Virus record (IMG/VR): IMGVR_UViG_3300033149_000098
Span: 1 to 26,174 of that record
Origin: a virus
Strand: one strand, 5' to 3'
Length of the DNA: 26,174 nt
Shown: positions 4,553-7,730 of the stretch, piece after piece
Numbering within the stretch: the stretch's first letter is position 1
Layout: each line of letters begins with the position of its first letter
The notes under the pieces: model-generated
Databases searched by the model: none
What the model saw: only the letters and a program-made list of their open reading frames with translations
What the model was told of the DNA's origin: nothing
Program-made: the position numbers and the translations under genes

Positions 4553-4707
4553 TGCAAGATTTAAAATTATATATAATAAATTCAGTTGCATTAGCTTTTT
4601 CTTTTGCGGACTATGTAGTAGATATATTAAGAATAATTTTATTAGTAGCAACAATAGTTTATACAATTAAAAAAACACAAGAACTCAATGGCAACAAAAA
4701 TAGGTGA
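4552..4707 (+). CDS. Small membrane protein, possible holin or antiholin
   Basis: A 51-residue protein. Residues about 7-39 are almost continuously hydrophobic apart from D20, D24 and R27, enough for one or two short membrane helices, and the end is basic (KKTQELNGNKNR). It starts in a TAATG overlap with the basic protein and runs 20 bases into the next gene. Size and position just upstream of the endolysin would suit a small holin or a holin regulator; a larger holin candidate lies at 6174-6638. No family assignment is possible by eye. Confidence 0.6.
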   Translation: MQDLKLYIINSVALAFSFADYVVDILRIILLVATIVYTIKKTQELNGNKNR

Positions 4708-4996
4708 AGACACAAACGTACAACTAGATTTAAAGACAATTGGAATCATAATAGCTGGTACTATTTCTTTGGCTAGTATGTGGTTTACTTTACAAGGCGA
4801 TATTCAAGATTTAAATAATCAGATTGATAGTTTTAGTGGAGATGAGTTTGTACAAAAAGTAGAATTTCAGCTAAAAGATGAATTGGTTCGAAGCACTATA
4901 ATGCAAATAGATAAATCCACAGATGGATTAAAAGAGGATATTTTAGATAATAAGGAAAGAATAAAGGAGTTGGAAGATAAAGTTTATAAAAGATGA
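4688..4996 (+). CDS. Membrane-anchored coiled-coil protein, i-spanin candidate
   Basis: 102 residues: a short hydrophilic N-terminus, one membrane helix at about residues 18-36 (IGIIIAGTISLASMWFTL), then an extended charged helical region to the C-terminus (about 38-100; for example EDILDNKERIKELEDKV). An N-in, C-out topology with a periplasmic coiled coil is the layout of inner-membrane spanins such as lambda Rz. It sits in the lysis cassette, and its stop overlaps the next start (ATGA). A candidate outer-membrane lipoprotein partner lies at 5810-6190. The spanin assignment is inference from architecture; a membrane-anchored structural role is the alternative. Confidence 0.6.
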   Translation: MATKIGEDTNVQLDLKTIGIIIAGTISLASMWFTLQGDIQDLNNQIDSFSGDEFVQKVEFQLKDELVRSTIMQIDKSTDGLKEDILDNKERIKELEDKVYKR

Positions 4997-5346
4997 AACA
5001 TTTAATGTATGTAATATTTGTTTTGTTTGTTAGTTATGTAACTAATGCTCAAGATATGACTTTATTACATATTAATTCAAAATGGAACTCAGATAATGAT
5101 TACCCATATTTATCACAACTCAAAGGTGTTAAAGTATTAAAAGTTAAATTAGAAAACCAGCCAGCAAATATTAAAAATCAAATCAAATCGGTACCCACAA
5201 TTATTTTGTATGATAGTAAAACACAAAGACCTAAAGGTCAATGGGCAGCTGATTTGTCATTTAAATTAAATGTTGAGCCTGATGAAATTCAAGAATACAT
5301 CAACAGGTATAAAATGCAAGCCACAAGACGGGCAACATCAAATTAA
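4993..5346 (+). CDS. Exported thioredoxin-fold protein without cysteines
   Basis: 117 residues. A signal peptide is visible: KH, a hydrophobic core at residues 4-16, and probable cleavage after Ala19 (TNA-QD). The mature part follows a thioredoxin layout: strand LLHIN, then Trp31 where the WCxxC motif would start, a middle strand VKVLKVKL, and the cis-proline motif VPTIILYD with Pro68. No cysteine occurs anywhere; Asn32 and Asn35 stand where the two catalytic Cys would be. It is therefore unlikely to do redox chemistry and more likely acts as a binding or folding module in the periplasm. It lies between the coiled-coil membrane protein (4-base overlap) and the endolysin, so a lysis-related role is plausible but unproven. 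Confidence 0.65.
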   Translation: MKHLMYVIFVLFVSYVTNAQDMTLLHINSKWNSDNDYPYLSQLKGVKVLKVKLENQPANIKNQIKSVPTIILYDSKTQRPKGQWAADLSFKLNVEPDEIQEYINRYKMQATRRATSN

Positions 5347-5352
5347 TAAATT

Positions 5353-5817
5353 ATGATTAGCGAACATATATCAGAAAAGGAAGCTGTTAAATCCATTACA
5401 GCTCTCCGTTTAGGAATCGACAACACTCCAGACGCAGACTCTTTAAATAATATGAAAATAATTGCAGAGAAAGTTTTTGAACCTCTTAGAAAATGGGTAG
5501 GAGGTCCTATAAAAATTAACTCGTTCTTCAGGTCGAGTGCACTCAATCAAGCGATTGGGGGCAGTAGTCGCTCACAGCATTGCCAGGGAAGAGCTTTAGA
5601 TGTGGATGATGTGTATGGACACAAAACTAACAAAGAGATGTTTGATTGGATTAAGGAAAACTTAGACTTCGACCAGCTTATATACGAGTTCGGCTCGAGT
5701 GATAATCCCGATTGGGTTCATGTATCGTATGTCAGTGAAGATAAAAACAGAAATAGAGTTTTAAAAGCTGTAAGAGACGATGGTAAAACAAAATATATTG
5801 ACATAACAAATGCGTAA
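5353..5817 (+). CDS. Endolysin, M15-family peptidoglycan peptidase
   Basis: 154 residues matching zinc-dependent M15 peptidases, which cut peptide bonds in peptidoglycan stems. The two diagnostic motifs are present: S-x-H-x-x-G-x-A-x-D as SQHCQGRALD, with probable zinc ligands His76 and Asp83, and WVHVSY with His123 as third ligand. Asp120 or Glu112 could supply the catalytic acid. No signal peptide is visible, so release should depend on the holin. The length fits a single catalytic domain without a cell-wall-binding domain. The ATG at 5353 follows the upstream stop by 6 bases. The gene uses more G/C-rich codons (TCG, GAC, CTC, CGC) than its neighbours, which may reflect recent transfer. Confidence 0.85.
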   Translation: MISEHISEKEAVKSITALRLGIDNTPDADSLNNMKIIAEKVFEPLRKWVGGPIKINSFFRSSALNQAIGGSSRSQHCQGRALDVDDVYGHKTNKEMFDWIKENLDFDQLIYEFGSSDNPDWVHVSYVSEDKNRNRVLKAVRDDGKTKYIDITNA

Positions 5818-6190
5818 ATTAGTTTTAATATTATTGTTAATAGCAGGATGTAGTATCCAACCCAAGCCTAAAATTCAAATTACTCATGTTTTAGCTATTG
5901 ATGAAAAAGGAGATACTTTAAGAATACCTATTGATTTAATTAGACCGATAAATTATAGAATAATAAATTATAGCGGTTATAGTGGTTGGGGTTATAATTA
6001 TGGATGGCATAACCCTTATTATTATCACAAAGAATATGATTATAGTCAAGGGTCTTCAGGAAGGTCAAGCAATAATAGTAATAACAATACTAACAACAAT
6101 ACTAATTCTAAAGTACCAGCAAGAGCAAATAATAAACCTACACCTCCCCCAGGTGTAACAAACAAGATTGGAAATGAGCAAAGACCGTAA
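5810..6190 (+). CDS. Tyr/Asn-rich lipoprotein, o-spanin candidate
   Basis: 126 residues. The N-terminus is a lipoprotein signal, MRKLVLILLLIAGC, with lipobox IAGC and Cys14 as lipidation site. After a short strand region (ITHVLAIDEKGDTLRIPI) comes an aromatic segment rich in Tyr, Trp and Gly (about 52-80), then Ser/Asn low complexity (about 82-100) and a Pro-rich end. It overlaps the endolysin by 8 bases and the holin by 17 bases. Outer-membrane lipoproteins nested among endolysin and holin genes are typically o-spanins (Rz1-like), and Pro-rich tails are common in them. The size is larger than lambda Rz1, so a different surface lipoprotein remains possible. Confidence 0.65.
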   Translation: MRKLVLILLLIAGCSIQPKPKIQITHVLAIDEKGDTLRIPIDLIRPINYRIINYSGYSGWGYNYGWHNPYYYHKEYDYSQGSSGRSSNNSNNNTNNNTNSKVPARANNKPTPPPGVTNKIGNEQRP

Positions 6191-6638
6191 AAAATTTAAA
6201 GATACTACTGTAGGCAAATTATTATTTGGTGCAGCAACTGTTATTAACCCTACACTTGGCAGTGTGTTAAATGGTGTAACTTCACCAAAAGATGCAATAG
6301 CTGAGATAACCAAAGCAGACATTCCTAATGAGGAAAAAATAAAACTTCAACAATTAATTTATGAACAACAAAATAAAGAAATGGAAGAGATTAGCAACAG
6401 ATGGAAAGCTGATGCCAGCAGTGATAGTTGGCTTTCTAAAAATGTTCGCCCTCTTGTTCTTGTGTGGTGCATCATTGTATTTAGTTTTGCAGGTATATTG
6501 GATTCTGTTGATTCTATACCTTTTCACATAAACACCACTTGGAATGATACATTTGAGAAAGTAATGATGGCTGTAGTATTAGCATACTTTGGTGGAAGAA
6601 CTACTGAAAAAGCAAGTAGCATTATTAAAGGAAAATAA
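6174..6638 (+). CDS. Holin, resembling the 3-TM gene-transfer-agent holin family
   Basis: 154 residues from the ATG at 6174; a TTG two codons upstream is less likely. The central motif ISNRWKADASSDSWLSKNVRPL followed by hydrophobic VLVWCIIVFSFAGIL is the pattern I associate with the GTA_holin_3TM family. A second hydrophobic helix, VMMAVVLAYFGG, lies near the C-terminus; the N-terminal region (GKLLFGAATVINPTLGSVL) is amphipathic and could be the third. Holins form lesions in the inner membrane that let the endolysin reach peptidoglycan. The gene closes the lysis cassette and starts inside the lipoprotein gene, so the two are probably translationally coupled. Confidence 0.7.
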   Translation: MSKDRKKFKDTTVGKLLFGAATVINPTLGSVLNGVTSPKDAIAEITKADIPNEEKIKLQQLIYEQQNKEMEEISNRWKADASSDSWLSKNVRPLVLVWCIIVFSFAGILDSVDSIPFHINTTWNDTFEKVMMAVVLAYFGGRTTEKASSIIKGK

Positions 6639-6943: not shown

Positions 6944-7167
6944 TGGATATTAGAAAAATATCTGTTGGTCCTGACTATAAATCAGGTGCTATGCACTATA
7001 TAGTAGGTCAAAAGGTATTGAATGATTCTCATACTATACATTTGATTAAGTATGATTCTGAAAAACAGTCTTTTAAAATTTATATTCAAGACAAAGAGGT
7101 TATAGTATTATGGAAAGAATTTACTTCTTCAGTACCTGTTTCTATTGAATATAATATAAATTTTTAA
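6943..7167 (+). CDS. Small hypothetical protein in packaging operon
   Basis: 74 residues, mixed alpha/beta (MDIRKISVGPDYKSGAMHY, then IHLIKYD, FKIYIQDKEVIVLWKEF, and a beta end SIEYNINF). No signal, membrane segment or recognisable catalytic motif. It overlaps both neighbours by one base (TAATG at each side), so it is co-translated with the coiled-coil protein and the GroES-like protein. Function unknown. Confidence 0.7.
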   Translation: MDIRKISVGPDYKSGAMHYIVGQKVLNDSHTIHLIKYDSEKQSFKIYIQDKEVIVLWKEFTSSVPVSIEYNINF

Positions 7168-7730
7168 TGAAGTCTCCATTTCAGTTTATTGTAAAGCCTG
7201 TAAAAGGTAAAAGATACGATAACACAAAAGAAATAGGAGGAATAGATTTTATTATAAGCACTTCACAAGAAGACCATAAATTTTCAAATCGGTATGCAGA
7301 AGTAGTTTCAACTCCTATTGATTATTCAGGTCCCATACAGACAGGCGATATTTTATTGGTACATCATAATGTATTTAAATTTTATTATGATATGCAAGGT
7401 CAAGAAAAAAGCGGTAAAAGCTTTTTTAAAGACGATTTATTTTTTATTGACTATGACCAGTTTTTTATGTATCAACATAATAATAAGTGGTATGCTCACG
7501 ATAAATATTGTTTTGTAAAACCTGTTTCTACTGAAGAGTCTTATATATTTAAACCCTTTTCAGAAGAGCCTTTAGTAGGCATTATGAAATATCCAAATAA
7601 TTATCTTAAATTAAAGGGAATAAAAGAAGGTGATAAAATATCTTTTCAACCAGAAAGTGAATATGAGTTTATAGTAGATGGAGAAAAGCTATATAGAATG
7701 TTTGACCATCAAATTGCTTTAGTATTATGA
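7167..7730 (+). CDS. GroES-like phage co-chaperonin
   Basis: 187 residues. The N-terminal part follows GroES order: strand FIVKPVKG, then a loop with Gly24-Gly25-Ile26 (GGIDF) where GroES has its mobile-loop GGIVL, then RYAEVV, and IQTGDILLVHHN. The C-terminal end (IKEGDKISFQ, then EFIVDGEKLYRM) repeats the closing strands of a GroES barrel. Bacterial GroES is about 97 residues, so this protein is nearly double length, with an inserted segment of about 90 residues. Phage examples such as T4 gp31 replace GroES on GroEL to fold the capsid protein; by analogy this one may help fold the major capsid protein at 13851. It overlaps both neighbours (TAATG and ATGA). No enzyme motif is seen. Confidence 0.65.
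   Translation: MKSPFQFIVKPVKGKRYDNTKEIGGIDFIISTSQEDHKFSNRYAEVVSTPIDYSGPIQTGDILLVHHNVFKFYYDMQGQEKSGKSFFKDDLFFIDYDQFFMYQHNNKWYAHDKYCFVKPVSTEESYIFKPFSEEPLVGIMKYPNNYLKLKGIKEGDKISFQPESEYEFIVDGEKLYRMFDHQIALVL

Follow-up and report, generated by a model that had tools for sequence, protein, structure and literature searches.

The stretch of marine phage DNA analyzed here (the window; 26,174 nucleotides of IMG/VR record IMGVR_UViG_3300033149_000098) encodes, in this order, a tail fibre, a small membrane protein with one TM and a coiled tail (TM-coil), a thioredoxin-fold protein (WN-Trx), an M15 endolysin, a lipoprotein, a 3TM holin, several small gene products, a terminase, and a portal protein. The tail fibre, terminase, and portal genes were assigned by eye. 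The features of the lysis region are collected in Table 1. Between the lysis and terminase genes, an ORF of 187 aa (7167-7730) matches a PHROG annotated as co-chaperonin GroES (1.2e-21).

Table 1. Features of the TM-coil/WN-Trx module and its downstream neighbors, in window coordinates.
Feature	Position	Strand	Basis or comment
TM-coil, 102 aa, one TM at ~residues 17-35, then helical/coiled-coil tail	4688..4996	+	Hydropathy; coil by eye
WN-Trx, clade A thioredoxin-fold protein with signal-peptide-like start	4993..5346	+	ORF, AF2 model, fold searches, family scans
Signal-peptide-like segment of WN-Trx, residues 1-19	4993..5049	+	Hydrophobic N-terminus; likely cleavage A19/Q20 by eye
W31-N32-S33-D34-N35, site of thioredoxin WCGPC	5083..5097	+	Codons TGG AAC TCA GAT AAT; family tallies
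P68, equivalent of the thioredoxin cis-Pro	5194..5196	+	Codon CCC; alignment with TrxA
QWAADLSFKL, strand 5 and following loop, family signature	5239..5268	+	33-member alignment
M15 peptidase endolysin	5353..5817	+	Pfam PF08291, 1.2e-15; phrog_894 endolysin, 2.3e-28
Lipoprotein-like ORF, lipobox LIAGC by eye, Asn/Pro-rich tail	5810..6190	+	Outer-membrane partner candidate
3TM holin	6174..6638	+	phrog_3427 holin, 2.5e-20; PF11351, 3e-5

WN-Trx is read from an ATG start as a protein of 117 aa with no Cys in the window translation, and it gave no Pfam or PHROGs match at an E value of ≤1. The original prediction described it as a secreted thioredoxin fold without Cys that retains a signal peptide, Trp31, and the cis-Pro at position 68; each of these sequence features is present, and the fold itself is supported by modeling. 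The N-terminus resembles a signal peptide (MKHLMYVIFVLFVSYVTNA, followed by QD after a cleavage site read by eye), and a hydrophobic N-terminus is shared by all proteins measured in the family described below (129 from clade A and 65 from clade B), with lowest 11-residue hydropathy values of 1.8 and 2.3, respectively. From the hydropathy and the apparent cleavage site, WN-Trx is probably exported by this signal peptide. An AF2 model based on a 33-member alignment had a pLDDT of 82.5, a pTM of 0.67, and the element order b-a-b-a-b-b-a; a first model, based on close relatives only, was poor (pLDDT, 47) and was set aside. Searching the PDB with Foldseek gave 834 matches at E ≤10, the best having an E value of 1.1e-3 and a prob of 1.00, and zero matches at E ≤0.001. 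Among the 50 Foldseek matches listed, most were thioredoxins or thioredoxin-domain chains, together with a few designed proteins or large complexes. With VIA, the best match was thioredoxin 6mos (Z, 10.3; rmsd, 2.3 over 82 residues), and Z was 8 or more in 119 of 1,000 aligned chains. A fold search of a viral library returned an unnamed protein as its top match (38% identity; E, 1.2e-10) and several annotated thioredoxins among the lower-ranked matches, and a profile of close relatives compared with PDB sequences gave six matches at E values up to 10, all of them thioredoxins (best E, 0.014).

Scans of IMG/VR found 20 and then 23 relatives and then 90 stretches carrying the strand 5 signature, which is weaker in divergent family members. 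The family ORF is held by 116 fetched loci (the window record included and some contigs represented twice), with 67 unique full sequences and 3 partial loci; locus L073 was left out as an unrelated frame. Two clades were distinguished on uncultivated viral contigs, clade A (that of the window) and clade B, with a median A-B identity of 23%. Clade B was first met at locus L198, which was reached via the upstream gene and encodes a longer thioredoxin; two scans for this clade confirmed 152 and then 295 relatives, from each of which the best 80 were taken. Since loci from the collection scans are the best matches, at most 80 per scan, distant forms are under-sampled. In a cultured-phage collection, tblastn found no match for the window protein at E ≤0.1 or for the forms from L023, L116, L057, and L044 at E ≤1; the L198 protein gave 10 weak records (E, 0.06 to 1), six annotated as thioredoxin, two as hypothetical, and two without annotation. 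Two pattern-limited scans of bacterial genomes produced 94 and 17 pattern matches, none of which was confirmed, a result that does not prove absence. In searches of the open-access PMC literature, we met no paper on a thioredoxin without Cys among the lysis genes of a phage. Judged from signal-peptide style and low GC content (33%) only, the host probably belongs to the Bacteroidota.

Clade B connects the family with classical thioredoxins. The Pfam Thioredoxin profile (PF00085) matched all 15 clade B proteins scanned at E ≤0.01, with L198 scoring 29.7 bits against a gathering score of 23.5; it matched 1 of 33 clade A members (E, 0.076), and the window protein fell short of the gathering score. 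In hhalign comparisons, clade B aligned with Escherichia coli TrxA at a prob of 95.7 and clade A with clade B at a prob of 96.7 (E, 4e-10). Because clade A on its own aligned poorly with TrxA (prob, 8.1), the thioredoxin ancestry of WN-Trx rests on the fold together with the bridge through clade B. By alignment, Pro occupies the cis-Pro position in 129/129 clade A (motif-filtered set) and 65/65 clade B proteins.

In this family, Asn takes the place of the nucleophilic Cys (C32). It was found in every intact copy examined from both clades, with the exception of one divergent second copy (on three contigs), and no copy examined had Cys at the first CxxC position. In an unfiltered tally of clade A, WN..N or WN..H was present in 131 of 135 unique sequences; the other four comprised two cut by a contig end (L079 and L101), the frame-shifted copy in L032, where WN..N is readable in the adjacent frame, and the divergent second copy. 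One tally row printed as V..Q passes the stricter motif and was taken as a regex mis-hit. All 65 unique clade B sequences have N..N. One of the six peptide patterns used for clade B contained N32; a later scan with N32-free patterns again gave N..N in all 78 newly fetched loci, which are largely the same contigs. The prediction that Asn replaces both catalytic Cys residues stands firmly for the first position, and for the second (C35) it hinges on an ungapped alignment, under which the residue is Asn or His. In clade B, the residue that follows the second position is a lone Cys (FWAKFNEANCF in L198 versus FWAEWCGPCKM in TrxA), and hhalign pairs this Cys with C35 by way of a one-residue gap. 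There is good reason to infer that clade A proteins are redox dead; clade B keeps one Cys.

After the signal peptide, the residues invariant in the 33-member alignment are N28, W31, N32, E54, Q56, P68, Q83, W84, A86, D87, L88, F90, and K91, and fewer of these stay fixed in the wider set. In an alignment of 194 unique proteins (129 from clade A and 65 from clade B), only N32 and P68 are at least 97% identical after residue 21; the 129 clade A sequences were filtered on the motif, and in the unfiltered tally the divergent second copy is the one intact sequence that departs from it. Since a site that had merely lost its function would be expected to vary, N32 appears to be under selection rather than in decay.

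Directly upstream of WN-Trx is the TM-coil gene. Its stop codon overlaps the WN-Trx start by 4 nt (ATGA, 4993-4996). TM-coil family proteins are ~90 to 107 aa long, with a single TM near the N-terminus followed by a helical tail, and hydropathy indicated a second TM in 0 of 170 proteins. Of the 199 distinct thioredoxin-like genes preceded by 300 nt or more of sequence, 198 come directly after TM-coil (266 of 267 loci if repeats of the same contig are included), the only miss being a contig with adapter-chimera-like upstream DNA. In an earlier set with at least 250 nt upstream, a TM-coil ORF was present in 100 of 103 loci, 67 of them with the 4-nt overlap; when read, the three misses were a frameshifted copy (L022 and L069, one contig) and a chimera-like locus that retains the gene end (L110). 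The first 300 positions of L110, a public viral contig, appear to be an assembly chimera in which adapter-like sequence, presumably a sequencing adapter, lies upstream of the module. The association also holds in the reverse direction. A scan with the TM-coil family alone confirmed at least 586 stretches; of the best 80 loci, 78 had room, and in these TM-coil was followed by WN-Trx (77 loci) or the clade B form (1 locus) and in none of the 78 by a CxxC thioredoxin. Residue covariation between TM-coil and WN-Trx (128 pairs; effective number, 46) gave scattered top couplings, several of them pairing TM with thioredoxin residues; it was uninformative as evidence for contact at this effective number and was set aside.

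Against the phage collection, tblastn gave no match for the window and L083 forms of TM-coil. Sixteen low-scoring TM-coil matches without an adjacent thioredoxin proved to be a paralogue located just upstream of clade B modules, which carries the motif EFRIKWPRGEMGALPDDAKQDLRI (L204:4403-4714 and similar places in clade B loci). For this paralogue, tblastn found four records (E, 1e-5 to 3e-2), three of them Pelagibacter phages: HTVC027P (E, 1e-5) and HTVC121P and HTVC041P (E, 0.02 to 0.03). There, the relative is followed by a different protein of 70 to 74 aa, and in HTVC027P it is next but one to an M15 gene. Three contigs carry a second thioredoxin-like ORF that has no Cys, is very divergent (FSAEFVKDN), and, read by eye, has Val in place of Asn32 (L056:180-512, L061:4693-5025, and L100:5218-5550). 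Because this second copy is preceded by its own TM-coil gene (full in L061 and L100 and cut in L056), the two-gene module has been duplicated in these contigs.

The placement of WN-Trx in a lysis neighborhood, with linkage of its homologues to M15 endolysins, was borne out across the family. Of 202 distinct modules, 156 have an M15 gene no more than 2.6 kb away (147 downstream and 9 upstream); 28 modules with full room have no M15 match, and 18 are cut. The downstream M15 gene is at most 150 nt away in 99 of the 147 cases, and M15 density was 0.33 per kb in the 2.6 kb downstream versus 0.0035 per kb farther than 2.6 kb away in either direction. The window endolysin served as the seed of the M15 profile, and the 202 modules were told apart by exact gene sequence rather than by how closely their genomes are related. 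Other clusters among them were a 3TM holin (78 modules), a two-TM protein with a coil (19 modules), and an amidase-like protein (9 modules), with cluster names given by eye except for those whose window member had been scanned. No M15 match was found in six loci selected through an amidase motif, all of which keep the TM-coil/WN-Trx pair. An ORF of 45 to 47 aa (YYP...ELNIYLFxxQLQFR-like) recurs between the endolysin and holin genes in L031, L033, L003, and L092. Since TM-coil is missing from 1 of 199 genes, while 28 full-room modules lack an M15 match, the constant partner of WN-Trx is TM-coil rather than the endolysin. TM-coil need not itself be the holin, because a separate holin is found near many modules.

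The constant pairing and frequent gene overlap suggest that TM-coil and WN-Trx are translated together and, by extension, that the two proteins quite probably form a physical complex. WN-Trx would be exported to the periplasm by means of its signal peptide. There, the groove that once formed the active site (W31-N32..N35, Pro68, and strand 5 with its loop) would offer no thiol site and would instead present a strongly selected surface with Asn in place of the nucleophile. In known thioredoxins, the substrate groove binds extended peptides. Because the conserved surface corresponds to this groove (as placed by alignment and not measured on the model), we propose that WN-Trx most likely acts as a clamp on the tail that TM-coil, in the inner membrane, would extend into the periplasm. 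The setting makes a role of the pair in lysis reasonably likely. Beside the endolysin and holin, the pair may control the timing or manner of inner membrane or wall opening, as T and RI do in phage T4; the choice of such holin/antiholin-type control over other lysis roles is drawn by analogy and is tentative. To the explanation as a whole, in which a formerly redox-active thioredoxin serves as the periplasmic binding partner of TM-coil and acts in lysis, we give even chances.

A spanin-like complex would assign the same genes differently, with TM-coil as the inner-membrane half and WN-Trx, either alone or together with the nearby lipoprotein, as the outer half of a device that disrupts the outer membrane. 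TM-coil does have an i-spanin-like topology, with one N-terminal TM and then helices, and the lipoprotein-like ORF of the window lies 0.8 kb downstream; for phage B40-8, Kongari et al. describe a predicted i/o-spanin pair ~1 kb apart (PMC6139136). However, the lipobox of an o-spanin is missing from WN-Trx (lipobox-like sequence was seen in 1/129 clade A and 0/65 clade B proteins), and the lack of a lipid anchor weakens this reading. ORFs of the window lipoprotein type occur in 27 of 202 modules, so that most of the family does without them. When a strict lipobox was required, 9 of the 166 modules with room were followed by a lipoprotein within 2 kb (0/166 in the antisense control). This test misses some, since the window-type ORF alone reaches 27 of 202, but the modules with a lipoprotein are a minority either way. 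Moreover, a TM-coil tail of ~60 residues would be short to span the periplasm, and a 2025 survey reports that Bacteroidetes phages use only unimolecular spanins (PMC12596118), which applies here to the extent that our probable host assignment is right. Taken together, these points make a spanin-like complex unlikely.

An envelope-directed role unrelated to lysis but encoded near the lysis genes, for example in superinfection exclusion or in disturbing a periplasmic factor of the host, is improbable in view of the strong and repeated closeness to endolysin genes. In its favor, exclusion systems employ small secreted plus membrane proteins, and the next gene looks structural by eye in some loci (such as L035 and L098). 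The original prediction had considered that WN-Trx might hold the endolysin. As a main role, holding or activating the M15 enzyme appears improbable as well: the M15 gene is often the very next gene, but the full-room modules without an M15 match and the amidase-motif loci that keep the pair weaken this reading, and the endolysin, in which no signal peptide is seen by eye, would come into contact with WN-Trx only once the holin has opened. Least probable is a cryptic enzyme in which Asn32, with Asn/His35 or the clade B Cys, takes part in chemistry or metal binding, for although this Asn is as conserved across clades as Pro68 and Nu-class glutathione transferases use Asn/Thr without an active-site Cys, position 35 is Asn or His, its neighbors vary, and a conserved metal-binding set is not apparent by eye.

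Our preferred reading remains that WN-Trx is a binding partner of TM-coil in lysis. The near-invariant Asn and the near-constant pairing with TM-coil beside lysis genes suggest that an old redox enzyme has been converted into a putative binding component of the lysis machinery. The family would then be a clear natural example of an enzyme fold that became a probable binding protein and acquired an equally strict new active-site signature, Asn for Cys. It is possible, if doubtful, that this pair is a two-component lysis complex of a new class that is common among uncultivated marine phages, probably those of Bacteroidota, and in which TM-coil and a secreted thioredoxin, made a permanent peptide clamp by the exchange of its nucleophilic Cys for Asn, replace antiholins or lipoprotein spanins. 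A near-constant two-gene unit beside endolysins, with TM-coil in at least 586 stretches and a thioredoxin-like half that in the window escapes Pfam and PHROGs, is of interest since, in our assessment, lysis timing and outer-membrane breach in marine Bacteroidota phages are poorly known. A flavophage survey names endolysins, TM proteins near endolysins, and two possible unimolecular spanins (PMC8776804).

Compared with TrxA and PF00085, to which clade B still matches, the family shares the fold, the cis-Pro position, and, in clade A, the Trp before the active-site position. It differs in lacking CxxC, with Asn at C32 in both clades and Asn/His at position 35 if the alignment is ungapped, and in having a signal-peptide-like start and a TM-coil partner; moreover, clade A has mostly Gln/His at the place of TrxA Asp26 and mostly Asn at that of Trp28, two residues with known roles in TrxA. 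The DNA polymerase of phage T7 uses host thioredoxin as a stable binding partner without redox chemistry and is thus a precedent for thioredoxin as a non-redox partner, although that processivity factor is cytoplasmic and catalytically intact and acts in replication. Two-component spanins of the Rz/Rz1 type resemble the pair in the i-spanin-like topology of TM-coil and in adjacent genes near an endolysin, but WN-Trx is not a lipoprotein. The closest topology, also in a lysis context, is that of T4 T and RI. In the pertinent part of PMC11413866, holin T is a small protein with a short segment in the cytoplasm, one TM, and a tail in the periplasm, and RI is a small periplasmic partner with a cleavable signal peptide, not described there as a thioredoxin. 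Our family differs from T and RI in that its genes are adjacent and often overlap, and it is likened to them by topology: by hydropathy, it combines one TM with a signal-peptide-like partner, and with the presumed membrane orientation and secretion, it would likewise pair a single-TM protein bearing a periplasmic tail with a small secreted partner.
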